Positions 32,925-45,943 of a stretch of 64,000 nt of DNA are shown piece after piece. The notes beneath the pieces are model-generated. The model had not been told where the DNA came from, searched no databases, and saw only the letters and a list, made by a program, of their open reading frames with translations. The stretch is from Methylomonas koyamae (GTDB taxonomy: Bacteria; Pseudomonadota; Gammaproteobacteria; Methylococcales; Methylomonadaceae), in NCBI RefSeq assembly GCF_019669905.1, contig NZ_AP019777.1:186001-250000 (forward strand). Reading direction: 5' to 3'. Numbering within the stretch: the first letter of the stretch is position 1; every line of letters begins with the position of its first letter. A program made the position numbers and the translations under genes.

Positions 32925-32951
32925 ACCGAATAACTAAAGTCGGACAACGCC

Positions 32952-32993
32952 AAAAAAAGCCCGCCAGGTTCCGGTACCTGGCGGGCTTTTTTT
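32952..32993. terminator. Bidirectional rho-independent terminator
   Basis: An 18-base perfect inverted repeat (AAAAAAAGCCCGCCAGGT at 32952-32969 against ACCTGGCGGGCTTTTTTT at 32976-32993) with a 6-base loop. A GC-rich 11-base core and T-runs on both strands suit it to end both the plus-strand small gene stopping at 32924 and the minus-strand TonB receptor gene stopping at 33021. Confidence 0.93.
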
Positions 32994-33020: not shown

Positions 33021-35345
33021 TCAGAAGCTATATGAAATCTCCCCATACACCGTCCGCCCCGCTTGCAGGTAAAACGCCGAATATTCCCGGTCCAGCAGAT
33101 TGTTGACCGAAAACGAAAGGTCGATGTTTTTCGTGGCCTGGTAGGCGATGCGGGTATCGACCAGGAAATACGGATCGTAACTGCCCGGTACGCCGGTAAC
33201 CTGGTCCAGGTTCTGGTCGTTGAAGAACGGCTGGCTGACGTAACGGCCGATAATGCCGCCGCTCCATTGCTCGTATTTGATGTCCAAGCCGCCGCTGAAC
33301 ATGGTTTCCGGCAATTGCACCATTTGTTTGCCGACGATCAAGGGATTGGCGGTGTTTTCGGTGATGACCGAATCGTTCAGCGTGTAAGTGCCGTTAAAGT
33401 GCAGCCAATCCCAATACAGTTTTTGCCGCAACTTGACTTCCACGCCTTCCACTTCGGCCTTGCCGGCATTCTGGCGTTCGGTCAGGGTTTGCAGCGCGCC
33501 GGTCGGTATACCGCTTTTCGCGTAAATCAGGTCGCTGATGTAGTGGTGGAAATAGCTGGCCGCAATTGTGGTACCGGCAATCGGCGTCGCTTCGCCGCCG
33601 ACTTCCCAGGAATGCATGGTTTCCGGCGACAAACCAGGATTCGGCTCGGTAATTACGCTCGAGGTCTGGGTATTGCCGTACAACTCGAAGTTGGTCGGCG
33701 GCCGAAAGGCCCAGCCGGTCGATGCGAACAGCTTATAGCCGTCGGCCGGCAGCCAGGTCAGGCTGAACTTGGGGTTGAATTGGCCGACCGAACGCTCCTG
33801 GTAGATGCGGGTAAAGGACGGGCTGGTGCTCTGGTTCATGCCGGAAGTGGACCAGTCGTCGTAACGCACGCCCAGGTGAGCGATCAGATTCGGCAAGATC
33901 CATAATTCGTCTTGTAAATAGGCCGAATAAATGCTGGATTCGCCTTTACCCAGCGCGGTGCGGGCGGTCGTCGAATCCCAGTTGCGCCAGTTGCCCAGCG
34001 CATAACGCGATTGGCCTTCCAGCTCGCTGTGGTTGGCGCCGAAACCGACGGTCAGGAAGTTGCGTTGCTCCCACAGAAACGGAAAGCGCAAGGCGACGTT
34101 GGCGTCGATCCGGTTGCTCGGCGTCACCGTCAACTGGCCGGTGCCGCCGGTCAGCGAATCCGAGGCGGCGTTGGCGAACGGCGAGTAGGTTTCGTGCTGC
34201 ATGTACTGAAAATCGATATTCAGTTTGATGTCGTGGCCGAAGTCGTGTTTCAGGTGGCCGAAATAACGGCGGGTGTCTTCGATCGACGGCAAGGAATGCA
34301 GAAACAACTGTTCGTAGACGTTCAGCCGGGCGCCGCCCACATTTAGGTTATTGCCGACGTTGCCGGACGAGCCGACGCCGATGGCCAGCGGCGTACCGTC
34401 GGTCCTGGTCAAATAACTGTTGTAGCTGCCGGTATCGCTGACTTCGCTGCGGCTCCAGGCCATGCCGCCGTCGATTTGGGTTTGCGGCGTCAGGTCGTAG
34501 TACAAATGCAGCGAGGCATTGTTTTGCTCCCAGGGCCGGCGGCCTTTATCGCCGACGATGAAACGGCGTTCGCCCTGGTTGGTCGTGGTCGGGATCGCAC
34601 CCAGGACCGGCGTCGTCGCCGCGCCGGACGCGGTCGCTACCGTCACGTAGTCGGACACCGCCCAGTTGTCGCTATCCATGTGGTTGAACGTCAACGAAAT
34701 GCCCAGACCGTTTTCGAAGCGGTCGCGGTAACGGCCTTTGATGCCCCATTGCTCGACTGCCGCGCCGCCGGCGCCGATGCTGAGCCGGCCTTCGCGCTTG
34801 GTCGGCACCTTCGAAATCACGTTCAGCACGCCGCCCATCGCCCCGCTGCCGTATAAGGCCGAGAACGGCCCCGGCACGTACTCCACCTGCTGGGCGTCGT
34901 CCATGTTCATGATGTTCCAGTCGACGTTGCCGTTGCTGCCGGTGTTGACCGGCAGGCCGTCCACCAGATACAGCGAACGGTTGGCGCCGCTGACGCCGTG
35001 AAAACTGGACGAGGCGACGCTGGAGCCGGGAAAGCTGGTGCCGTAGGCGCTGCCGCGCAGGTAGACGCCGGGGATGTCCTTCAACGCATCGCCGATGCGC
35101 TGCACCAGACGGTTTTCGGTGTTGTCGGCGGTAATCACGCTGACGTTGGCCGGCGCCAACGCTGCCTGCATTTCCGAGCGGGTAGCGGTCACCAGCGTTG
35201 CTCCCAGCGTTTCTTCGCTGTCCTTGGTTTTGTCCTTCTGTTGGGTTTCGGCAGCGTTATCCGCCTCGGCGTCCACGGCCCAAGCCGCTTGGCTTTGAAT
35301 CAGTCCGGCCAACGCCAGAACAGCCATGCTATTTAAACGAGACAA
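33021..35345 (-). CDS. TonB-dependent outer-membrane receptor next to CobN-like gene
   Basis: 774 residues from a TTG start at 35345, chosen because a perfect AGGAGG lies 8 bases upstream (35354-35359). The protein then begins SRLNSMAVLALAGLIQSQAA, a normal signal peptide. The open frame upstream is spurious. The plug domain has TLVTATRSEMQAALAPANVS, IGDALKDIPGVYLRG, LYLVDGLPVNTG and FSALYGSGAMGGVLNVISKV. The barrel ends in an aromatic residue (YGEISYSF). The sequence type resembles BtuB/HmuR-like receptors for tetrapyrroles or metal chelates. It lies 183 bases downstream of the exported CobN-like gene on the same strand and may be its outer-membrane partner. Substrate unknown. Confidence 0.88.
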   Translation of the reverse strand: MSRLNSMAVLALAGLIQSQAAWAVDAEADNAAETQQKDKTKDSEETLGATLVTATRSEMQAALAPANVSVITADNTENRLVQRIGDALKDIPGVYLRGSAYGTSFPGSSVASSSFHGVSGANRSLYLVDGLPVNTGSNGNVDWNIMNMDDAQQVEYVPGPFSALYGSGAMGGVLNVISKVPTKREGRLSIGAGGAAVEQWGIKGRYRDRFENGLGISLTFNHMDSDNWAVSDYVTVATASGAATTPVLGAIPTTTNQGERRFIVGDKGRRPWEQNNASLHLYYDLTPQTQIDGGMAWSRSEVSDTGSYNSYLTRTDGTPLAIGVGSSGNVGNNLNVGGARLNVYEQLFLHSLPSIEDTRRYFGHLKHDFGHDIKLNIDFQYMQHETYSPFANAASDSLTGGTGQLTVTPSNRIDANVALRFPFLWEQRNFLTVGFGANHSELEGQSRYALGNWRNWDSTTARTALGKGESSIYSAYLQDELWILPNLIAHLGVRYDDWSTSGMNQSTSPSFTRIYQERSVGQFNPKFSLTWLPADGYKLFASTGWAFRPPTNFELYGNTQTSSVITEPNPGLSPETMHSWEVGGEATPIAGTTIAASYFHHYISDLIYAKSGIPTGALQTLTERQNAGKAEVEGVEVKLRQKLYWDWLHFNGTYTLNDSVITENTANPLIVGKQMVQLPETMFSGGLDIKYEQWSGGIIGRYVSQPFFNDQNLDQVTGVPGSYDPYFLVDTRIAYQATKNIDLSFSVNNLLDREYSAFYLQAGRTVYGEISYSF

Positions 35346-35359
35346 TTTCAGTTCCTCCT
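35340..35359 (-). promoter_or_regulatory. Strong ribosome-binding site deciding a TTG start
   Basis: Minus-strand AGGAGG at 35354-35359 stands 8 bases before TTG at 35345. The next ATG in frame (Met of NSMAVLAL) would remove the positively charged start of the signal peptide, so TTG is preferred. Confidence 0.8.
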
Positions 35360-35466
35360 GTGTCCTTATCGCGTGGTTTGCGCGTATTTTGTCGGAATAA
35401 TATTTAATTCTTCTTACATCGAATGCGGGTTTTGCCGTATTGATGCACCGATTTTCGAAAGTTTGT

Positions 35467-35516
35467 GCCGGCCCTGGCCGGCGCGACGGCGGCAAACTTT
35501 GCCTGCCACCGTCGCG
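35467..35516. other. Two nested hairpins between CobN-like and TonB receptor genes
   Basis: A 7-base perfect stem GCCGGCC/GGCCGGC at 35467-35482 abuts a 13-base stem with one mismatch (CGCGACGGCGGCA at 35482-35494 against TGCCACCGTCGCG at 35504-35516). The segment lies just after the CobN-like stop on the minus strand. There is no T-run directly after it, so it may be an attenuating or mRNA-stabilising structure rather than a simple terminator. No B12 box (GCCACTG) is present, so it is not a cobalamin riboswitch as far as I can see. Confidence 0.45.
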
Positions 35517-35528
35517 CTCAATCGGCCA

Positions 35529-38500
35529 TCACTCGCCGGCTTTGGCCTCGGCTTGCTTGCGCTCCAGGTAGCCGCGCCAGTAACCGGCCGCGAACAAGGC
35601 CAGCACGCTGAGCAACAGCCACCAGTTCTGTTCCGGGCTCAGCGCCTGTTGCTGCTCGCCTTTGTCGTTGGCGACTTTCTTCTCTTCCATCTCGTAGCCT
35701 TCAAGCGGCTGGTTGGCGTTCGGCGCGGCTTGGGCTTGAGCTTGAGCCGGCTGTTGAGCGGGTGGCGGTTGCTGACTCTGACTTGCCTGCGGTGGTTGAG
35801 CGGCGGCGGCTGCCGGTGGCTGGGCTTGTGCGCCCGGCGCGGCGGCTTTGGCAGCCTTGGCCGCATCCTGTTGCTCTGCCAGTTTGGTGATCTCCGGACT
35901 GCTACAGGTATCCTTGTTGCAAGCCACGCCGGCCTTGGCGATCACTTCCTGATTGACCTGTTCCAATTTGGCTTTCACCGCCGGATCGGCCTGCCAGTAA
36001 CCCTTGTTGATCGCCACCAGCATTCTGTCCACCATGGCTTGATAGGCCAGCAGGTTGTCGGCCTGCTCGAACTTTTTCTGGATGTCTAGCTGGTATTTGT
36101 CCTCGACGTAGGTTTCGTACATGGCTTGCCATTTCTCGGCGCCGACCGCTTCCGGCACCGTCACCTGCCAACCCCACAGGTTTTCCGCAACCATGTTGAT
36201 GAAGCGGGCGCCGGCGTAACCTTCCTTCAACATCGACTCTATCCACTTCGGGTTCAGGTAGCGGCTTTGCATTTCCCGGCCCTGGTAGCGCTCCAGACTC
36301 ATGGTTTTAGCGGCGGTAGGATCGGCCAGATCGGCGACTAGCACTTCCGGCGTCTTGCCGTTGACCTGTCTTGCCGCCATCGCGGTGCCGCCCAGATATT
36401 GGAAGAAGTCGTCGCCGTCCAGCGTGGCGTAGACGTTGCTGGAGCGGCTGTGGATCACCGCGTCGGTGCCTTTCAACGACAATTTGAACAAGTCCACCGC
36501 CAACGTCGCGTCCTTACTGGCAGCTTCGCCCCAATGGCCGCGGCCGTAGACGTGGTGCATGCGATTGAAGAACACGTCGGCCAGTTGTTTTTCGTCGGTC
36601 CAAGTGTTGGACAGCGGAATCGCCCGATCCAGATTGGTGCCGTAAGCACCCGATGGCACGCTGAACAAGCGCGCCGAAGCCATATCCAGCGCTTCTTCGG
36701 GCTTCAAGCCGCGTTTGACCAATTCGGCCTGGGTTTCCTGGATATGCCGGCGCAACGGATTATCCGGCTCGTCCTGTTCCTGAGCCTTGGTTTCGGCCTG
36801 ATCCAGCAGCTTGATGACAGACGCAAACAAATCCCGGTACAAGCCGGACGGAATGATGGTGACATCGACCCGGGGCCGGCCCAGTTTGTCTCGGGCGATC
36901 ACGTCCACGCCCTGAGTGCGGCCGCGTTCGTCCCAATGCGGTTTGACGCCGAGCAGATGCATGATTTCAGCTTCCATCACGCCTTCATGGCGCGAGCTCT
37001 CCACGCCCCACAGATTGAACACCAAGCGTTCCGGGTAGTGGCCGTGCTGCTTTTTGAAATCGGCGACCACTTGCTCGGCCAAGCGCGCGCCTTCGTTGTA
37101 AACCGCCTCGCTGGGAATCCGCGACGGATCGAAGCCGTACAAGTCCTTGCCGGTTGGCAAGGCGTCCGGGTTGCGCAATGGATCGCCGCCGCTGCCAGCC
37201 GGGATGTAGCGGCCGGCCAGCGCATCGATCAGTGCGTTCATTTCGGCGTTGGCGCTATCGCCGATCAGCTTGGACGTGGCCTGGACGTTTTGTTTCAGCG
37301 CCTCGCCTTTTAGCTTGGGAGCGCGGGCAACGATGGCTTCGGCGAAACGCTGTCTAACCGCTTCATCCGGCGCCTTGCCGAAGGTATGCAAACCCATCGG
37401 CACCTTTTTCTCCCGGATTTCCTTTAGGTAATGCTCCAGTTCTTCCAACTGATCGCCGGTTTCGGCGCGTTCCATTTTCAGGTCTTTCAACAACCCGGCT
37501 TTGGCAGCGATCTGGTTGATCTCGTCCAGCCTGATCTTGGCCAGTTGTTCGCTTTTCTGCGCGGCGACGTTGTAGTCGTCCAATAAACCGGCTAGTTTGG
37601 CCAGTTCCGGATTCAAGTCGGCCTTGTCCAGCGGTGGCGTCATATGCGAAATAATGGTCGCCATCGCCCGGCGCTTGGCCTGCAAGGCTTCGCCGACGTC
37701 GTCCATGATATAGGGGTAAATTTGCGGCACGTCGGCCATCAAAATCTCGCCGGGATCGGCGGCGGTAAAACCGACTTCCTTACCGGACAGCCATTCGTGG
37801 GTGGCGTGGGTGCCGAGATGAATCATCGCGTCGGCGCGGTAGCCCTTTTGCAACCACAGATAAAACGCGACGTATTGATGATGTGGCGGCATGCTCACGT
37901 CGTGGTACAGCTTTTTGACGTCTTGCTCCCAGCCGCGCGACGGTTGCGGTGCCAGCAACAGATTGCCGTATTGCAGGGCCGGCAGGATCAAAAAGCGCTG
38001 GCCTTTGTTGTCGGTCCAGGCGCCGATTTTGCTGTCTTCCGGCTTGCCCCAAGCTTTCAACATCGCGGTTTTAAACGTTTCCGGCAGTGCGTCGAACCAT
38101 TTTTGGTAATCGGTAATCGGCAGCAACACTGCGCGGCCGCTGGCGGCGGCCTCGGCAACCGCGCCCGGCTCCCAGTTACCCAGATTGATGCCGTGGTTCT
38201 TCACGGCGGCTTTCAACGCTGCGCCGTCGGTCGGCGCGTCACCCAATTGGTACCCCTCCTGGCGCATGCGCTGCATGATGTTCAGCAGCGATTCAGGCAG
38301 AACGTTCAAATACGAGGCGCCGATATTTTCCTTGCCTGGCGGGTAGTTGTAATACAGCAGCGCGACCTTTTTGTCGGCGTTGGCGGTATGGCGCAACTTG
38401 GCCCATTTGTCCAGACGGTCGGCGTAGCGGGCGATGCGTTCCGGGATAGGCACTTCGCGGACGAAATCCTGGCCGGTGGCTTTATCGTGCATGCTTTCCT

Positions 38501-39494
38501 TGCTGGCGACTACGGTCGGCGCGATTTCGCCGGCGAATTCCGGCAATGCCACTTGCCAGGCCCGTTCCATCACATCCAGACCGGTGGCGGATTCGCTCCA
38601 TTGCGCCTGGCTTTGGCTGTTCAAGGCGATACCGTTCAGCACCGGCACGCCCAAGCGCGTCAGTGTGGGAACGGTCTTGTCAGGACTCGCGCCGATTTTC
38701 AAGGCCAGTGCTGCAATGGCCTCGACGCGGGACTTGCCGTTACCGTCGACCAGCATTTTTTCCAGCGTCTTGTCGTAGGGATAGCCGAATACCGGCAGCA
38801 CGTTGTAGCCCTTGGCTTCCAATTGTTCGGCCAGCGTTTTTACGGTATCGGTCTGGCCGGACAAAGCCGATGAGCGGTAAAACAAAATCGCGATCCAGGG
38901 CTGGCCGGCTTTATAACCGGCGTAGGCTTTTTGGTAGCTGTCGAAGTCGGCGAACAATTGCTTGCTGCGCACGTCGAAGGCGCCGATCTCCGGCTGGGCT
39001 TGCGGCGGTGCGATGTTGGCCTGGACGTTTTTGAATTTGACCAAGGCCAATCGGATCATGTTGGCGGCATTGTCGGCGCCGCCTGCCGACATATAGGCTT
39101 GCAGGTCTTTATCCAGTTGCAGGCCGTAGTCGGCGAAATCGGCGTCGTAACTCAAACCCACCGCATACAGCTTGCCGCCGCGCGCGGCGATCTGTTTAAA
39201 CACCTCGCCGCCTTCGCGCAGAATGCTGCGGCCGGTGATTTGCGCCAATACCAGATTGGACTGTTGCAGCTCGGTCTGGTCGGCTTGCGCCAGCTTGGAG
39301 CTGGAATACACCCGTAACTTGACGCCTTGCAATAATGGGTCGTTTTGCAGTTTGACGGTGGCCGCGACGGCGGTTTGCGAATCCAGGTCGCCGAGGATCA
39401 GGCTTAGATTGAGCGGCGTTTCGGCTGCGGCCGAGCCGGCCGCTACCCATAGCAGCAGGGTCAGCAGCCAAGCCCAGTATTTATTCAGGTACAT
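35529..39494 (-). CDS. CobN/ChlH-family chelatase-like protein, predicted exported and membrane-anchored
   Basis: 1321 residues, a length near the CobN/BchH large-subunit range. Family blocks include MPPHHQYVAFYLWLQKGYRA, MIHLGTHATHEWLSGKEVGF, VPQIYPYIMDDVGEALQAKR and FNLWGVESSRHEGVMEAEI. Unlike cytoplasmic cobaltochelatase, it starts with a classic signal peptide (LLTLLLWVAAGSAAA, cleavage about residue 24). It ends with a Pro/Ala/Gln-rich linker (about 1205-1270), a helix (about 1291-1306) and an Arg/Lys tail, giving a type I membrane protein with the chelatase domain in the periplasm. It overlaps the DUF2149 gene by 14 bases. No CobS/CobT-type ATPase is nearby. A role in removing metal from, or handling, an imported tetrapyrrole (HmuS-like) fits better than cobalamin synthesis. 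This is inference. Confidence 0.88.
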   Translation of the reverse strand: MYLNKYWAWLLTLLLWVAAGSAAAETPLNLSLILGDLDSQTAVAATVKLQNDPLLQGVKLRVYSSSKLAQADQTELQQSNLVLAQITGRSILREGGEVFKQIAARGGKLYAVGLSYDADFADYGLQLDKDLQAYMSAGGADNAANMIRLALVKFKNVQANIAPPQAQPEIGAFDVRSKQLFADFDSYQKAYAGYKAGQPWIAILFYRSSALSGQTDTVKTLAEQLEAKGYNVLPVFGYPYDKTLEKMLVDGNGKSRVEAIAALALKIGASPDKTVPTLTRLGVPVLNGIALNSQSQAQWSESATGLDVMERAWQVALPEFAGEIAPTVVASKESMHDKATGQDFVREVPIPERIARYADRLDKWAKLRHTANADKKVALLYYNYPPGKENIGASYLNVLPESLLNIMQRMRQEGYQLGDAPTDGAALKAAVKNHGINLGNWEPGAVAEAAASGRAVLLPITDYQKWFDALPETFKTAMLKAWGKPEDSKIGAWTDNKGQRFLILPALQYGNLLLAPQPSRGWEQDVKKLYHDVSMPPHHQYVAFYLWLQKGYRADAMIHLGTHATHEWLSGKEVGFTAADPGEILMADVPQIYPYIMDDVGEALQAKRRAMATIISHMTPPLDKADLNPELAKLAGLLDDYNVAAQKSEQLAKIRLDEINQIAAKAGLLKDLKMERAETGDQLEELEHYLKEIREKKVPMGLHTFGKAPDEAVRQRFAEAIVARAPKLKGEALKQNVQATSKLIGDSANAEMNALIDALAGRYIPAGSGGDPLRNPDALPTGKDLYGFDPSRIPSEAVYNEGARLAEQVVADFKKQHGHYPERLVFNLWGVESSRHEGVMEAEIMHLLGVKPHWDERGRTQGVDVIARDKLGRPRVDVTIIPSGLYRDLFASVIKLLDQAETKAQEQDEPDNPLRRHIQETQAELVKRGLKPEEALDMASARLFSVPSGAYGTNLDRAIPLSNTWTDEKQLADVFFNRMHHVYGRGHWGEAASKDATLAVDLFKLSLKGTDAVIHSRSSNVYATLDGDDFFQYLGGTAMAARQVNGKTPEVLVADLADPTAAKTMSLERYQGREMQSRYLNPKWIESMLKEGYAGARFINMVAENLWGWQVTVPEAVGAEKWQAMYETYVEDKYQLDIQKKFEQADNLLAYQAMVDRMLVAINKGYWQADPAVKAKLEQVNQEVIAKAGVACNKDTCSSPEITKLAEQQDAAKAAKAAAPGAQAQPPAAAAAQPPQASQSQQPPPAQQPAQAQAQAAPNANQPLEGYEMEEKKVANDKGEQQQALSPEQNWWLLLSVLALFAAGYWRGYLERKQAEAKAGE

Positions 39495-39816
39495 AAACCA
39501 CCTTGCCGTCGTTCAACCGGTACGCGGTGCCCAAACGCTCGCCGGAACCGCTGAGCTTGCGGTCGGTGACTTTGGATACCTTGATTTGCGAGCCTTTCTT
39601 GCTGACGATTTCCATCGTGCCGTCTGCGTTCTGCTTGGTCATCGTCACCGTCGATTCCGGGTTCATCAAATCCATCATGTTGTAGGCCATGAACAAGGCC
39701 ACCATCATGCTGACGATGAACACCACGCTGGCGTCGAACAGGTTGGCGACGCCGGCGATCGGATCTTCCAACGGCTCGCTGTTTCGGTGCAGATTAGAGC
39801 GTCTCAGATAGCGCAT
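39481..39816 (-). CDS. DUF2149-family small membrane protein
   Basis: 111 residues from ATG at 39816, selected by a GAGGAGG site 6 bases upstream. One membrane helix (FDASVVFIVSMMVALFMAYN, about residues 25-47) follows a short cytoplasmic N-terminus with DPIAGVANL. The periplasmic tail of about 65 residues ends GTAYRLNDGKVVYVPE. The topology, and the Asp in NLFDASVVFIV at the start of the helix, recall ExbD/TolR/MotB-type stator partners, so with the upstream ExbB-like protein it may form a proton-driven motor. It overlaps the ExbB-like gene by 23 bases and the CobN-like gene by 14. Confidence 0.8.
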   Translation of the reverse strand: MRYLRRSNLHRNSEPLEDPIAGVANLFDASVVFIVSMMVALFMAYNMMDLMNPESTVTMTKQNADGTMEIVSKKGSQIKVSKVTDRKLSGSGERLGTAYRLNDGKVVYVPE

Positions 39817-40399
39817 GGCCGTCCTCCTCGATTGCCAAATCCTGCACATCCAATACCCGGCTCGCGGCCAGTTCGGCTTGATGGCGCATCGCCGCAAAAT
39901 CGGCACGCAACCATTGCTCGCGCACCAACGCCACCATGTAGGCGATCACGCTGCAGCCCAGGCCGGTCACGGTGGCGGTAAAGGCGGTGACCATGCTGCT
40001 AGCCATGCTGGGAATATTGCCTTGCGCCAAAGCCGCCAGCGAAATGCCCATCGGAATCAAGGTGCCCATCAGACCCAGTGCCGGACCGAGTTTGATGACA
40101 AAACGGATTTGGTCGAGCTTGACCAATTGCCGGTGCTCGTGTGTTTGCAGCAACAGCTCCAGCTCCACGTCCAGCGGCGCTTCGGAACGGTTCTTTTTAC
40201 CCAGCGTCACCGCCAGATCCAGACTGAACAGGCGCACGGTACGCGAACCGGCCTGGCGTCTATCCAGCCATTCCTGCAGCAATCGGCCGCTGGCGTAGAC
40301 CGAATAGGCCGCCAACGCTGTGACGATCAGCAATACCGGCAGGTATAACGATGACGAAATTTGGTACAGAATGGTTTCTAATAAGTGGGTAAGTTCCAC
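39794..40399 (-). CDS. MotA/TolQ/ExbB proton-channel family protein
   Basis: 201 residues from GTG at 40399, which has AGGAGG six bases upstream. Three membrane helices: about 15-36, then KLGPALGLMGTLIPMGISLA and SSMVTAFTATVTGLGCSVIA, the paired helices of TolQ/ExbB with their conserved Gly/Pro and Thr residues. Overlap with the DUF2149 and CobN-like genes shows a single operon. It is not a standard exbB, because no exbD follows and the partner is DUF2149. A dedicated energy unit for the neighbouring TonB receptor or for the anchored CobN-like protein is likely. Confidence 0.85.
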   Translation of the reverse strand: MELTHLLETILYQISSSLYLPVLLIVTALAAYSVYASGRLLQEWLDRRQAGSRTVRLFSLDLAVTLGKKNRSEAPLDVELELLLQTHEHRQLVKLDQIRFVIKLGPALGLMGTLIPMGISLAALAQGNIPSMASSMVTAFTATVTGLGCSVIAYMVALVREQWLRADFAAMRHQAELAASRVLDVQDLAIEEDGHALSETL

Positions 40400-40616: not shown

Positions 40617-41714
40617 TTACAACATGGTTCGCTCCACCAGCCAGAAGGCGCCCATCAAACTGACCGCGACCGAGCCGCCCTTCAAAAACCGGGCGGCGGT
40701 TGCGACCTGGCTGTTCAACCACCAGATCAGCGGCAGGACCAAGGCCGCGACGGCAATCTGTCCACTTTCTATCCCTAAGTTGAACGCCAGCAGCGGCACT
40801 AAAATCCCGCTGTCGGCCGCCGAGATGTTCATTTCCTGCAACACGCCGGCGAAGCCGAAGCCGTGGATCAAACCGAAGCCGAAGGTCAGCCAATGCCGGC
40901 CCTTGGGATGGTCGCCACGGATAATGTTTTCGAGGCCAACGTAGATGATCGTTGCGGCGATGAACGGTTCGACGAAACTGCCGGGCAATTCGACCAGCCG
41001 CAAACCGGCGCAGGCCAAAGTGATGGAGTGGGCGATGGTGAAGAAGGTGATGATCTTCAACGCCGGCCACAAACTATGCGTTACCGCCAGCAATGCGAAC
41101 AGGAACAGCAGGTGGTCGTAGCCGGTCAGGATATGCTCGATGCCCAACTTGAAAAAGTCGCCGAACGCCGCGAACGCAGCTTGGGGGGCTGCCGAGTCCG
41201 CGGCGGCGGCGAGCGTCAGGTCGAGTTGGTCGTCGTTGCGGCCCAACATTTTTTCGGCCAGGGTTTTGCCGGCGGCGTCGCGCACCGTCAGATATTGCTG
41301 GTGGCCGTCCGGCAGCAATCCCAGAAAGCCGGATTGCAGCCGTAACTGCCGCTGCGCCGCGGCCGGATAAACCATCTGCACTTGAGCGTTGTTGCGGCCG
41401 TCGAAACTGGCCTGGCCGGGCTGGCTCTGCAGCTCGGTGCCGTCTGCGCTGATACGCAACTGTTCGGCCAGCAGTTTGGCGATGGCGGGTTTGGCCGCTT
41501 CGCGCTCGGCGTCGCTAACTTCGGCGTCCAGATCGCTGTCCATCGGTACGAAGGCTTCGATATCCTGCAACGCAAACGTGGCAGTTGCCTCGATATGGTC
41601 CGGTTTTAGCGCCAGATCCAGCGAACTGAGTCCGGGCGGGTGGGCGTGGGCGCGCCCGGCGGCCAACGCCAGCAGTAACAGTGGCAGCCGGGAAGCCGTA
41701 ATTCGAATTGCCAT
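40617..41714 (-). CDS. HupE/UreJ_2-type membrane protein with exported EF-hand-bearing N-terminal domain
   Basis: 365 residues. The signal peptide ends near residue 24 (RAHA), making His the likely mature N-terminus (HPPGLSS). A periplasmic domain (25-175) contains DSDLDAEVSDAE at residues 59-70, matching the EF-hand loop (acidic at 1, 3, 5 and 12, hydrophobic at 8). Six or seven helices follow, with the family His motifs GIEHILTGYDHLLFLF, FTIAHSITLACAG and GLIHGFGFAGVL. HupE/UreJ relatives move nickel or other divalent ions into the cell. The copy at 57097-58215 is a close paralogue. The adjacent TonB receptor gene ends 11 bases upstream of this start. Confidence 0.85.
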   Translation of the reverse strand: MAIRITASRLPLLLLALAAGRAHAHPPGLSSLDLALKPDHIEATATFALQDIEAFVPMDSDLDAEVSDAEREAAKPAIAKLLAEQLRISADGTELQSQPGQASFDGRNNAQVQMVYPAAAQRQLRLQSGFLGLLPDGHQQYLTVRDAAGKTLAEKMLGRNDDQLDLTLAAAADSAAPQAAFAAFGDFFKLGIEHILTGYDHLLFLFALLAVTHSLWPALKIITFFTIAHSITLACAGLRLVELPGSFVEPFIAATIIYVGLENIIRGDHPKGRHWLTFGFGLIHGFGFAGVLQEMNISAADSGILVPLLAFNLGIESGQIAVAALVLPLIWWLNSQVATAARFLKGGSVAVSLMGAFWLVERTML

Positions 41715-41724
41715 GTCGCCGACC

Positions 41725-43947
41725 TCAGAAATTGATCGTTATCGTGCCGCGGAACATGCGCGGCTCGACCGGATGCTTCAACAGGCCGAACTGGTTGGCA
41801 GAACCGTTCGGATATGCCGACTCGTAGGCATAGGCGATGTCGTTGCTTTGCGAACCGAGGATGTTGAATACGTCGATCTCGAATTTATAACGTTTCTGTT
41901 TGTAGCCCGCGCTGAGGTTGACGATGTTGGTGTCGCCGGACCAATAATCGACGTTGGTGTTCGGATCGCGGTCCAGATAGACCCGGCCGAAGTGACGCAA
42001 GCGAATCGAGCCGAACAAGCCGTTCGGAGCTTCGATAGTGGCGCCGGTGGACACCACGCGGCCTACCGAGTTCGGGATGTACAGATTGCTGTCGGCGTAT
42101 TTGGCGGTGGTCAGCGCAAAGTCGGCATCCAGCGTCAGCCAGTCGAACGGTTTGTAGTAGTTGGTCAGTTCGACGCCGTAACGGTGCGATTTGCCTGTGA
42201 CGTCGGTAGTGCCTTCGTCGCCGACGAACACCAGCTCCTGGCTGGATTCCAGCCACCACAGCGCGAAGGTGCTGTTCAGGCCCGGCACGTAATTGCTGCG
42301 GATGCCGGCCTCGCCGCCGCGCGACCAGGCGGCAGGGCGTATCCGAGCGGCGGCCGCATCCACCGGACTGCCATCGTTCGGATTGGCTTGCAACGTGGTG
42401 CCGCGCGCATCGTTGGAGTGGTAACCGTAACCGGCGTTAAAGAAAAACTCGGTATCCGCCCACGGCCCCAAAACCAAGCTGATTTTCGGGCTGACCATAA
42501 CCTTGCCGCGGCTGCCGGAGTTGGCGGCGTTGATTGCCGGGTCTTGGTTACGGTTGTCCAGCACCTCGACGTCGTTGTTGATGAAATCGCCGCGCAAACC
42601 GGCGATGGTGCGCACCTTGTCGTGCCAATGGGTGGTGTTTTTGAAATAAGTGCCGACCGTGGTCACGCCGACGTTGCTGCGGCTGACGGTGTTCATAATC
42701 CGCCTCGCCTCGGTTTCGTAAAGCCCCAGGCCCATGATCTGGTCGTTGCGGAATTGCAGGCCGACGCTGTTATCCATCTCGAAACCGAACAATTTGTTGT
42801 AACGGGTATGCTCGAAATGGCCGCCGGTCTGTACCCGTTGTTCGGTTTGCAGAATCTGGTCGCCGCCGGCACCGCGGGTAAAGCCGCTGAAATTGGAATA
42901 CAGGTCCAGGTCGGTATACAGCGCATAGATATTGGCGTCGTTTTTCCAATTGTCGCCTTGGTTCCAGAAGCTGCCGGACAGGCTGTAGCGATTGGTTTTA
43001 CCGCCGTCGGTCGGGTCCATGGAGCCGTAAAGTCCGAGGCTGCCGTTGTCGATTGCCGCCTGCGGAATCTGGTTGGTGGCGGTCCAGCTGTTGGTGTAGG
43101 CCTTACCGTTGATCGATAAGCCCCAATCGTCGCCGCCCAGCGTGTAACGCAACTGGCCGTTGAATTTCTTCGAGTCTTCCGGCACTTGCCAGACGCCGTC
43201 GTACAGGTTGAATTCGCCGGCATAGAGTAAATCGCCGTCGCCGACTTTCATCGAATTGGCGACCAGAGTACGGTAGTAATCGAACGAGCCGGCGGTGAAT
43301 TTCAAAATGCCCTGATCCAGTTTGTCCATCGTGAACATCTTGGCGTAACCGGCGGCCGAGAAGTCGCCGACCTCGGCGTAATACGGACCCTTGCCGTATT
43401 CGACCTTTTTCACCAACTCGGGAATGATGCTGTTGATGTCCATGTAACCCTGGCCGTGGGCGTGGGTGGTCATGTTCATCGGAATGCCGTCGACGAAGGT
43501 GGTGAAGTCGGTACCGTGGTCCAGGTTGAAGCCGCGCAGGAAGTATTGGTTGGCCTTGCCGGAGCCGCTGTGCTGGGTCGCGATCGCGCCGGGCACGACT
43601 TCGACCAGTTCGCCGTTGCGCGAGAACGGCCGGTTTTCGAATTGCTTCTGGCTGACCTCGCCTTGCGAGGCCGAGCCGGCGATGCCGATCAGATTTTTGC
43701 CGCGGCCGTCTTCCTCGACTTGCACGGCTTCCAGTTCTTCGGACTTTTCCGATTTTTTGCCTTTGTTGGCGGCTTTAGTTGCCGGCTTGACATCTTCGGC
43801 TGCGGCCACGATTGCGGTATCGGTCGTTTCCGGCGCCGGCTCGGCCATTGCGTCGGCCCAAGCCAAACCGAGGGCAACTTCCAGGCCGACGGCCAACAGG
43901 GTTTTCGGGAACAGCGCGGCGCGCCGGGCAGAGCGTGGTCGGTACAT
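41725..43947 (-). CDS. TonB-dependent receptor, probable metal or metal-chelate uptake
   Basis: 740 residues from ATG at 43947, with GAGGA about 6 bases upstream; another ATG at 43959 has no ribosome site. A signal peptide (LLAVGLEVALGLAWADAMA) is followed by a Lys/Glu-rich segment before the TonB-box region ELEAVQVEEDGRGKN. The plug has NGELVEVVPGAIATQHSGSG, QYFLRGFNLDHGTDF and FVDGIPMNMTTHAHGQGYMD. The HAH in that loop is a possible metal contact. The C-terminal strand ends TITINF. It sits between two HupE-type genes: one 11 bases downstream, and one whose stop lies 8 bases upstream. Co-expression with permeases supports metal uptake, and nearby NikR suggests nickel. Confidence 0.88.
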   Translation of the reverse strand: MYRPRSARRAALFPKTLLAVGLEVALGLAWADAMAEPAPETTDTAIVAAAEDVKPATKAANKGKKSEKSEELEAVQVEEDGRGKNLIGIAGSASQGEVSQKQFENRPFSRNGELVEVVPGAIATQHSGSGKANQYFLRGFNLDHGTDFTTFVDGIPMNMTTHAHGQGYMDINSIIPELVKKVEYGKGPYYAEVGDFSAAGYAKMFTMDKLDQGILKFTAGSFDYYRTLVANSMKVGDGDLLYAGEFNLYDGVWQVPEDSKKFNGQLRYTLGGDDWGLSINGKAYTNSWTATNQIPQAAIDNGSLGLYGSMDPTDGGKTNRYSLSGSFWNQGDNWKNDANIYALYTDLDLYSNFSGFTRGAGGDQILQTEQRVQTGGHFEHTRYNKLFGFEMDNSVGLQFRNDQIMGLGLYETEARRIMNTVSRSNVGVTTVGTYFKNTTHWHDKVRTIAGLRGDFINNDVEVLDNRNQDPAINAANSGSRGKVMVSPKISLVLGPWADTEFFFNAGYGYHSNDARGTTLQANPNDGSPVDAAAARIRPAAWSRGGEAGIRSNYVPGLNSTFALWWLESSQELVFVGDEGTTDVTGKSHRYGVELTNYYKPFDWLTLDADFALTTAKYADSNLYIPNSVGRVVSTGATIEAPNGLFGSIRLRHFGRVYLDRDPNTNVDYWSGDTNIVNLSAGYKQKRYKFEIDVFNILGSQSNDIAYAYESAYPNGSANQFGLLKHPVEPRMFRGTITINF

Positions 43948-43955
43948 AGTCGTCC

Positions 43956-45323
43956 TCATAGTGCGAATATCGTTGCGGTCGTTTTTGTTGTTAACACCGG
44001 TCTTATGCCGGTTTGGAGTTTGGATGCGTTGGCGCTTGCGGCGAATACGCCGGCGAGCGAATGGTTCAGGGATAAGGCGGCGTCGGCTGAATCGTCGGCT
44101 TGGCTTTGAAATAGCGTGCGGCCTGAGCCTGTCGTAAGCGGCAGGCCGGCAACAGGCGCGGCGGGGGGTATAAATGCGCCAGGCAGAACCATGGCAGGCG
44201 TCGGGCCGGCGCAGGTAAATAAATTTGGCTTCGGGATGGCGCGGAAAGAACCGGCGCGGAGTTGCTGAACGGCTACAGCGGATAGAGCGGGGATACAGCG
44301 AAATGCGGAGAAAATCGGGGCGAGGCGGGCGGAAACGGCAAACGGCGGCGAGGTGCGACCGACACCGCTGCTGAGCAATTGGGTACCCGGAGTTTGGTTG
44401 ATATCCGGAAAGCGTTGTTTGAATCCGCTCAGACCGTTGCCGGCCAAATCGGCCCACTCCGCCCAGTAAACACCCGCCGCCGGCAATACGCTACGCGCGA
44501 CCGAAACGACATGAGCGAATGTGCCGGAAACCCCGGCGGCCGCTTTAACTATCGGCGCGTTGGCGCGATGGCTCGCCACGGCGCTGGTGCAAGCCTGGGA
44601 ATCCCAGGCGGCGCCGGCAGCGTCCAGCCCTCGGCCGCGGTAGCCGGCCGGATTGGCGGAGTAAAACGCCGCGTCCGCGCTCCAATGGGCGACATCCGTG
44701 GGTTCCGCCGTTTCGGCCGGGCCGGCTTTGGCCCATACGGATTGCGAAAACATCGCGGTCAGCAGAAAAGTGGCGGCCAACACCGCCAATTTGGCGACCA
44801 AAATCCCGGCGCCGTGCAGCAGCAAAGTCGCCAACATAAAGCCCAGCGTATAAGAAATCAGGCTGGCGGAAGTCGAAATTTCCTGGCCGTGGGCAAAACC
44901 GTGGAAGAAGGCGAAGAAAGCGACGATCAGCACGTTGATTTTGCTGCTGAAGCGAATCTTGCGCGTAATCAGTAGCGCGAATACCGCGCAAGACAGCAGA
45001 ATGATGCCTTCGACGCTGGGTATCGTTATTCCGGCCGCGCCGGCCAAACCGCCCAGACTCATCACGCCGACGAAGGCCAGCGGCAGCATCCAGACGGCTT
45101 GGCCGCGCAATTGTGCGGCCCAAATACCGACCGCCAACATTGCCAGTAAATGGTCCCAACCGGCCAGCGGATGGTTGAAGCCGTTGCTCCAGCCCAACGT
45201 ATCCAAGCCGAAAAAATGCTCACCGAATAAGGCCGCGACCGCCAGTAACGGCAAGCCGAAGCCGAGCAGCCGCAGCCATGAGGGCGACAATTCGGATCGG
45301 GTGCGGGAACGGCGTAATGTCAT
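43956..45323 (-). CDS. HupE/UreJ-family permease with long unrecognised C-terminal tail
   Basis: 455 residues, more than twice the usual length of about 200. Residues 1-195 are a standard HupE: helices, HPLAGWDHLLAMLAVGIW (51-68) with the conserved HPLxGxDH, and FFAFFHGFAHGQE (136-148). HupE proteins take up nickel for hydrogenase or urease. Residues 195-315 are Ala-rich and coding-like in base pattern. Residues about 316-455 are low-complexity with less coding-like third positions, and may be a poorly conserved tail running into the receptor leader. A sequencing frameshift that removed the natural stop is an alternative. The gene lies downstream of nikR with a 152-base AT-rich gap. Confidence 0.72.
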   Translation of the reverse strand: MTLRRSRTRSELSPSWLRLLGFGLPLLAVAALFGEHFFGLDTLGWSNGFNHPLAGWDHLLAMLAVGIWAAQLRGQAVWMLPLAFVGVMSLGGLAGAAGITIPSVEGIILLSCAVFALLITRKIRFSSKINVLIVAFFAFFHGFAHGQEISTSASLISYTLGFMLATLLLHGAGILVAKLAVLAATFLLTAMFSQSVWAKAGPAETAEPTDVAHWSADAAFYSANPAGYRGRGLDAAGAAWDSQACTSAVASHRANAPIVKAAAGVSGTFAHVVSVARSVLPAAGVYWAEWADLAGNGLSGFKQRFPDINQTPGTQLLSSGVGRTSPPFAVSARLAPIFSAFRCIPALSAVAVQQLRAGSFRAIPKPNLFTCAGPTPAMVLPGAFIPPAAPVAGLPLTTGSGRTLFQSQADDSADAALSLNHSLAGVFAASANASKLQTGIRPVLTTKTTATIFAL

Positions 45324-45475
45324 GGTTTAACGACGGAAAAAGCCTTAAGAATTCAAATCAAATGCCGGTTAAGACGAATAGGGAGCGAATCATACGACAC
45401 CTATCACATTTTTAAAAATTATGAATAATAAATAAAATGTCTTATCATGCGCCGAACTCGCGCTGCCGAGCCGGC

Positions 45476-45943
45476 TCAACTGTGCGGATGCATGTGGGAA
45501 TGGCTGTGGCCGTGGTGGTCGTGCTGGTGGCTGACTGCGGCCATTTTGACCGGTACCAGGTTCAGCGCGGCATGACGGACGCCGGTTTCGGCGGACAGCT
45601 TGTCGGCAAACGCCCTAATGCGTGCGGTCAGGCCGCGCAGAAACAAGCTTTCCAGGCAGTCGTCGTGGTCCAGGTGGACGTGCATCGACGATACGACCAG
45701 ATCGTGGGCATCGTGCTGGTGGCTGGTCAGGCGTTCCGCCAGGTTGCGTTCGTGGTGGTTGTAGACGTAGGACAGCGTGGCGATGCTGTAAATGGCCTCG
45801 TCGCGCACCAGGCGCTTGGTTTCGATTTCCTTGCGCAGCAGGTCGCGGACGGCTTCGGAGCGGTTGGAATAGCCGCGGGCCGCGATCCATTGGTCGAACT
45901 CGGCGGCCAATTCGTCGCTGAGAGAGATGGTAAAACGTTCCAA
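45476..45943 (-). CDS. nikR: Nickel-responsive regulator NikR
   Basis: 155 residues from TTG at 45943, with GAGGAG six bases upstream. The N-terminal ribbon-helix-helix (ERFTISLSDELAAEFDQWIA, then NRSEAVRDLLR) binds DNA. The ACT-like metal domain carries the four square-planar nickel ligands at His77, His88, His90 and Cys96 (HQHD, MHVHLDHDDC), matching E. coli His76, His87, His89 and Cys95. An extra His-rich tail (QHDHHGHSHSHMHPHS, residues 140-155) could store or sense metal. NikR represses nickel uptake genes when nickel is plentiful. It stands at the centre of four HupE-type genes and between two TonB receptor loci. Confidence 0.94.
   Translation of the reverse strand: MERFTISLSDELAAEFDQWIAARGYSNRSEAVRDLLRKEIETKRLVRDEAIYSIATLSYVYNHHERNLAERLTSHQHDAHDLVVSSMHVHLDHDDCLESLFLRGLTARIRAFADKLSAETGVRHAALNLVPVKMAAVSHQHDHHGHSHSHMHPHS

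Follow-up and report, generated by a model that had tools for sequence, protein, structure and literature searches.

HmuS, a CobN-like protein of Bacteroidota, has been shown by experiment to be a heme dechelatase in which His538 is essential for turnover and whose reaction needs a reductant (PMC12583661; for the Porphyromonas gingivalis protein, see PMC13227078). The P. gingivalis operon hmuYRSTUV is listed as HmuY, a TonB receptor, the CobN-like protein, a hypothetical protein, a MotA/TolQ/ExbB protein, and a DUF2149 protein (PMC10434189). BtuS, a third CobN type, was predicted to serve in metalloporphyrin salvage (Rodionov 2003, as cited in PMC6460266), and the Zur-regulated genes PA1922-PA1925 of Pseudomonas aeruginosa encode a TonB receptor, a CobN-like protein, an ExbD-like protein, and an unknown protein (PMC4542158, PMC8456098, PMC8531726, PMC11761036). 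Here we describe a related system in a 64,000-nucleotide stretch of Methylomonas koyamae (contig NZ_AP019777.1, positions 186,001 to 250,000; hereafter the window), in which a cobN-like gene adjoins genes for an ExbB-like and a DUF2149 protein (together, the triad). The system is real and conserved, and its kind is already known from HmuS, BtuS, and PA1922-PA1925. We give about an even chance to the reading that it is a BtuS/HmuS-like periplasmic, anchored demetallation module that in Methylomonas has been rewired towards nickel; nickel rather than heme would be the likeliest metal.

The putative operon lies wholly on the minus strand in the order nikR-hupE-TonB receptor A-HupE_UreJ_2-exbB-like-DUF2149-cobN-TonB receptor B (Table 1). 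The DUF2149 gene overlaps cobN by 14 bp and exbB by 23 bp, and a TonB receptor follows 3', as described in the first-pass annotation of this DNA; the stop of hupE and the start of receptor A share an ATGA overlap, and gaps of 217 bp and 183 bp lie 5' of exbB and of receptor B, respectively. That annotation had confined the system to 33021..40399, which is too narrow: nikR, two HupE/UreJ genes, and the second TonB receptor (A) stand directly 5' of the triad and went unmentioned, and both the nickel pointers (nikR, HupE/UreJ, and a NikR-box-like site) and the cobalamin riboswitch of many relatives were missed. Its account of the protein itself is borne out. The CobN-like protein begins with a hydrophobic signal-like segment that has an A-x-A stretch at its end, and its C-terminal part is an Ala/Pro/Gln-rich linker followed by a hydrophobic segment, features from which it is predicted to be exported and anchored in the inner membrane. 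Among related open reading frames (ORFs) of our 79 named loci (L numbers), 68 of 77 have a hydrophobic stretch within the first 60 residues (19-residue mean of at least 1.2), the starts of the other nine may have been called too early, and a C-terminal hydrophobic segment (mean of at least 1.0) is present in 69 of the 74 complete ones.

The nickel-type surroundings recur beyond the window. We scored NikR boxes against the half-sites GTATGA/TCATAC, which we take to be the E. coli consensus. In the nikR-hupE gap, the score is 11/12 in L005 and 12/12 in the sister strain L142, where a perfect GTATGA-N16-TCATAC stands between the two genes, and forms of the box with an N15 spacer occur beside nikR in L147, L148, and L149. 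In L065, from another lineage, a single strand carries nikR, one ORF without an assignment, a perfect box of the N15 form, NicO, a TonB receptor, ExbB, DUF2149, and CobN, and in L008 and L016 hupE is joined directly to exbB across a gap of 14-15 bp. Across 151 genomes of the order, 19 of them Methylomonas, a close CobN (80-100% identity) was found in five Methylomonas genomes and NikR in 14, with nikR and cobN 6.0-6.6 kb apart in four of the five that carry the close CobN. The M. koyamae genome (5.1 Mb in 2 contigs) also contains NiFe-hydrogenase large-subunit matches. Nickel and cobalt have been reviewed (PMC7689651, PMC2667541), and neither a nickel link nor a motor role of CobN-like proteins was found in those parts of the literature that our survey covered.

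Table 1. Features of the putative operon in the window, listed 5' to 3' along the minus strand.
Feature	Position in window	Strand	Evidence
nikR, nickel-responsive regulator	45476..45943	-	PF08753 1.9e-30, RHH_1; NCBIfam NF002815 180.8 bits vs cut-off 83
NikR-box-like palindrome GTATGA-N15-TCTTAA, nikR-hupE gap	45369..45395	-	10/12 half-site letters
HupE/UreJ permease, long C-terminal extension	43956..45323	-	PF04955 5.2e-43
TonB-dependent receptor A	41725..43959	-	Plug PF07715 1.4e-13
HupE_UreJ_2 family membrane protein	40617..41714	-	PF13795 3.2e-45
ExbB-like (MotA/TolQ/ExbB) protein, GTG start	39794..40399	-	PF01618 7.1e-11
DUF2149, Asp28 in its one predicted membrane helix, short beta region after it	39481..39816	-	PF09919 1.1e-31
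Exported CobN-like chelatase (predicted), 1321 aa	35529..39494	-	PF02514
GTHATHEW active-site motif, CobN residues 561-568	37791..37814	-	Alignment columns
Cys1192-x4-Cys1197 pair of CobN	35904..35921	-	Clade alignment
C-terminal membrane anchor of CobN (predicted), about residues 1290-1310	35565..35627	-	Sequence; hydrophobicity in relatives
TonB-dependent receptor B	33021..35345	-	PF00593 8.7e-51, Plug 4.6e-23
Hairpin and T-run 3' of receptor B, likely terminator	32951..32990	-	Read from sequence

On the co-occurrence of the module genes, a survey of which had been proposed in the first pass, ExbB and DUF2149 accompany CobN in 64 of the 79 named loci, always on its strand, with the order ExbB-DUF2149-CobN in 58 and CobN-ExbB-DUF2149 in six. 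Of the 15 loci without both motor genes, 11 break off close to CobN at the end of their contig, leaving less than 2 kb on the side that holds these genes in kin. The other four (L048, L056, L066, and L064) extend 10 kb on both sides of CobN and yielded neither motor gene in tblastn searches (E value 0.001), and their CobN proteins have no anchor, the best C-terminal 19-residue means being -0.69 to 0.36. All 62 complete CobN proteins with both motor genes reach at least 1.08, and the seven complete CobN proteins that have an anchor without both motor genes all belong to the 11 cut loci; the low C-terminal hydrophobicity of L053 (0.57) does not allow a judgment, since its contig measures 3.4 kb. 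Because the four uncut loci represent two lineages in the FastTree phylogeny, the joint absence of anchor and motor rests on two events.

What the ExbB/DUF2149 pair energizes is the point on which our reading departs from published drawings. The HmuS authors drew HmuU/HmuV as energizing the receptor (PMC12583661), and PA1924 was suggested as the ExbD for PA1922 (PMC4542158); a role of the pair at the TonB receptor rather than at CobN is quite possible, although we hold it to be somewhat short of an even chance. Separate TonB-energizing genes speak against it, however. Plasmid pGLOV01 of T. lovleyi (L112) has a complete ExbB-ExbD-TonB set 3' of the triad, and such extra genes occur in seven of the 64 triad loci, as a full set in three and a partial one in four, which favors a dedicated role of ExbB/DUF2149 at CobN, as far as gene content can indicate it. 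In addition, the four uncut loci mentioned above combine a TonB receptor with an unanchored CobN in the absence of ExbB/DUF2149. Together with the joint loss of anchor and motor, the separate ExbB/ExbD/TonB genes lend circumstantial support to a powering of CobN by proton flow. We propose, tentatively and as a rather doubtful extension, a proton-driven chelatase: since there is no ATP outside the cytoplasm, the AAA+ motor (CobST, ChlID) would be replaced by the ExbB/DUF2149 stator, which would work through the C-terminal anchor and force the metal out. On this view a single modular system would have been adapted to iron in Hmu, to zinc under Zur, to cobalt under the cobalamin riboswitch and, in the window, to nickel under NikR.

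In the DUF2149 protein, Asp28 at the head of the helix is present in 26 of 26 aligned rows, and proteins of the ExbD/TolR/MotB type have a conserved Asp in their single membrane helix. With regard to homology with ExbD, Pfam returned only PF09919, there was no PDB match at an E value of 1, and the structure model is poor; it places a helix at residues 19-51 at low confidence, and its mean predicted local distance difference test score (pLDDT) of 63.5 is too low for a fold search.

In comparison with HmuS (structure 9d26), the window protein shares the anchored, exported class-I architecture and an operon with a TonB receptor, ExbB-like, and DUF2149 genes, and in the superfamily alignment its His563 aligns with the catalytic His538 of HmuS. 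The class-I chelatase fold is supported by the structure model, which matches 9d26 with a template modeling (TM) score of 0.84 and is closest by Z to CobN 7c6o. By contrast, four of six HmuS features are absent, so that membership in HmuS is not supported: the Met-rich insertion (domain IV) is missing, HmuS residues 689-889 having no counterpart (query matches overlap at 703-713); the heme ligand Met79 is replaced by Thr87; the heme ligand His254 falls on a gap in the MAFFT alignment and on Ile267 in the HMMER alignment; and where HmuS has LSLDHxxEFMGG with His1209, the window protein has ATLDGDDFFQYLGG with Asp1029. The likeness to hmuYRSTUV drawn in the first-pass annotation thus stands for the architecture but not for most of the HmuS features compared. 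The window protein has two histidines beyond those of HmuS, and its operon has nickel-type neighbors and no HmuY.

Those two histidines (His538 and His566, window numbering) are typical of the clade. The column of His566 holds Leu in the CobN, BchH, and HmuS rows, as well as in three of nine rows of one Bacteroidota group and four of five of another; since the model falls below pLDDT 50 at model residues 542-547 and 575-585, this residue could not be placed in the geometry of the active site. The window motif reads HLGTHA, with Ala in place of the last Gly of HFG(T/A)HG. The Cys1192/Cys1197 pair is kept in 71 of 74 clade rows (missing in L039, L043, and L062), and no CobN or BchH row has it; the HmuS fragment used ends before that column. 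At the Met79 column, several clades that have riboswitches carry Met, one group of Bacteroidota carries His, and all seven Methylomonas rows carry Thr; the pattern is suggestive, but a Flavobacteria group breaks it, having riboswitches and mostly Ile there.

In a FastTree phylogeny of 98 rows, in which HmuS is represented by a fragment pieced together from two printed alignments, the starred clade that includes the window CobN has 74 rows. Outside it are canonical CobN (11 rows), BchH (5), HmuS, three other long rows, and a separate branch of L113 and L118-L120, a gammaproteobacterial exported group; long branches leave the deep joins unsure. A smaller IQ-TREE phylogeny groups, with a support of 92 (not starred), the seven Methylomonas rows with L011, L012, L065, L023, L039, and L043 and separates them from a betaproteobacterial clade in which riboswitches occur. 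The closest named homologs are Methylomonas proteins (92-95% identity). Relatives of the L065 CobN do not exceed 42% identity (best segments) in 273 other genomes, and in the Bacteroidota sample of 149 genomes there were matches in two, including the genome from which the query came.

The canonical CobN of CobNST (7c6o, 9uk9) resembles the window protein in fold and in PF02514, but it works with CobS and CobT, has Lys in GKHG where the window protein has Thr, and ends, in the C termini seen, without a hydrophobic anchor. Among the matches listed, all NCBIfam CobN models score under their cut-offs for the window protein, including NF004644 (861.6 against 1248 bits), whereas L113 and L118-L120, which likewise adjoin ExbB-like and DUF2149 genes, score above that cut-off. 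We infer that PA1923 belongs with this latter group; PA1922-PA1925 is under zinc control (PMC4542158), in contrast to the nickel-type neighbors in the window. It is worth noting that the NF004644 equivalog "cobaltochelatase subunit CobN" captures L113 and L118-L120, whose signal-like N termini, hydrophobic C termini, and neighboring ExbB and DUF2149 genes make that name probably misleading. BtuS is likened to the window protein by description only: it too is CobN-related, predicted to be periplasmic and anchored, and distinct from CobN/ChlH (PMC6460266). BtuS1/BtuS2, however, were tested for heme iron, in contrast to the nikR and HupE context here, and cobalamin riboswitch control, which distinguishes many relatives from the window, is not stated as BtuS-defining in the available parts of PMC6460266.

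Taking these observations together, we envisage that a chelated metal, with a tetrapyrrole as the most likely chelator, would reach the periplasm through TonB receptor A or B; there CobN, anchored beside its own ExbB/DUF2149 stator and receiving force through its C-terminal anchor, would remove the metal; the freed ion, most likely Ni2+, would then enter through HupE. Several observations weigh against this reading. The NikR-box-like site of the window is imperfect (10/12, a score reached twice when the 152-bp gap was shuffled 300 times with its dinucleotides preserved), and the L144 box (9/12, reached by 84 of 300 shuffles) is not above shuffles. In L008 and L016, neither nikR nor a NikR box (7/12) was found, and G269, the fifth cobN-bearing Methylomonas genome, gave no NikR match. 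Four sister genomes (L143-L146) have the nikR-hupE-receptor A locus with no cobN alongside, and G299 has a second locus of this kind (L156); the module thus looks like an addition to a nickel locus and may simply have inserted there. HupE/UreJ proteins can carry cobalt as well. Moreover, a cobalamin riboswitch lies 5' of CobN on the same strand in 19 of the 38 relatives (of 79 loci) scanned with cmscan against Rfam, with at most 10 kb of fetched flank. As for the motor, recombinant HmuS reportedly converts heme (PMC12583661), an argument against an obligatory one.

The riboswitches bring forward a cobalt/corrinoid system of the BtuS type that merely lies beside a nickel locus, which we consider unlikely but a serious contender. 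Recurrent ORF families near CobN (80 loci, by representatives) include CbiA/CobB (10), CbiZ (7), BtuC-like FecCD (6), and CbiK (5), and the T. lovleyi plasmid carries cobalamin synthesis and CbiMNQO-type genes; by such families and the riboswitches, much of the wider family is tied to cobalt or corrinoids. The window's own branch differs: Rfam matched no riboswitch in the window, and none of the six scanned sources of the branch has one (window, L016, L011, L012, L065, and L023, for which the upstream sequence is limited to 2 kb). This absence alone does not equal nickel, since L014, L018, L033, L035, L046, L070, L074, L048, and six further Bacteroidota loci outside the branch also have no upstream riboswitch (L046 has one downstream). 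The NikR-box-like site, the coupling to HupE, and the second association of nikR, with NicO, in L065 speak against cobalt. Besides, the genome has its cobalamin-type genes elsewhere, in one stretch with CbtA, CbiA, CbiX, and CbiD and another with a TonB receptor and CbiB, each with a cobalamin riboswitch. On this genomic evidence, cobalamin synthesis probably does not need the window CobN. The remark of the first-pass annotation that no ATPase subunit is near extends in part to the whole genome, in which no CobT_C was found; CobS was not searched for. A cytoplasmic role in cobalamin synthesis is rejected, given a single PF02514 gene in the genome, no CobT_C, and CbiX/CbiD elsewhere. The reverse activity, a true chelatase inserting nickel or cobalt into a tetrapyrrole in the periplasm, would agree with the best-known class-I members, which insert metals, and with the closeness in fold to 7c6o; we hold it improbable, as no tetrapyrrole synthesis gene was recognized in the operon, which has uptake receptors instead, and as the genome gave no CobT_C match. 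An HmuS-like heme dechelatase feeding iron is slightly less credible still, in spite of the shared architecture, the fold match to 9d26, and the heme receptor model scores, all under cut-off, of receptor B (receptor A had no PDB match at an E value of 0.001): besides the residue differences above, no iron gene was recognized in the operon, which has nickel-type genes in its place.

Some further features of these loci deserve mention. The HupE extension of about 250 aa carries the motif D-[IV]-N-x-T-P-G-x2-L-x-S-x-GVG-x-TSP, which is shared by 12 Methylomonas loci, the window among them, and codon-wobble variation, judged by eye, suggests that it is protein coding. A DUF2162 "predicted transporter" adjoins ExbB in 18 loci (L068:6146-6877 and 17 others), mostly of Desulfobacterota/Nitrospirota type, and its PCPxC motif, kept in all 18 proteins, could be redox-active; hhalign supported neither a homology of DUF2162 or of a 201-aa Flavobacteria protein with HupE/NicO nor one of DUF2162 with CcdA. 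PepSY_TM proteins accompany the Gallionella-type group of loci, and a flavodoxin gene lies directly 3' of the unanchored CobN-like gene in an Odoribacter metagenome-assembled genome (MAG; L064:13752-14366); no redox partner of either type was recognized in the window operon. CobN-like proteins of 1477-1495 aa in L121 (5914-11099) and L122 (5686-11619) have a C-terminal anchor, an ExbB-like gene, a short protein whose helix starts with N-L-V-D or N-F-L-D, and neighbors that look cobalamin-type by eye. A Euryhalocaulis MAG has two CobN-like genes in tandem, one very divergent (L045:5924-13951), and the two triads of Azonexus sp. R2A61 belong to different branches, L015 with a riboswitch and L012 without one in the fetched locus.

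Most of the remaining bacterial and archaeal sequences of the chelatase superfamily are not reliably annotatable, and it has been asked whether HmuS-like proteins have roles beyond heme (PMC12583661). The M. koyamae locus provides a concrete HmuS-like case tied, on our reading, to another metal, in a genus with cultured strains, and the pattern of anchor and motor genes makes the role of ExbB/DUF2149 directly testable. The label "cobaltochelatase subunit CobN" may be misleading for a large exported family and, if nickel is indeed the metal, some bacteria would harvest it from organic chelates.

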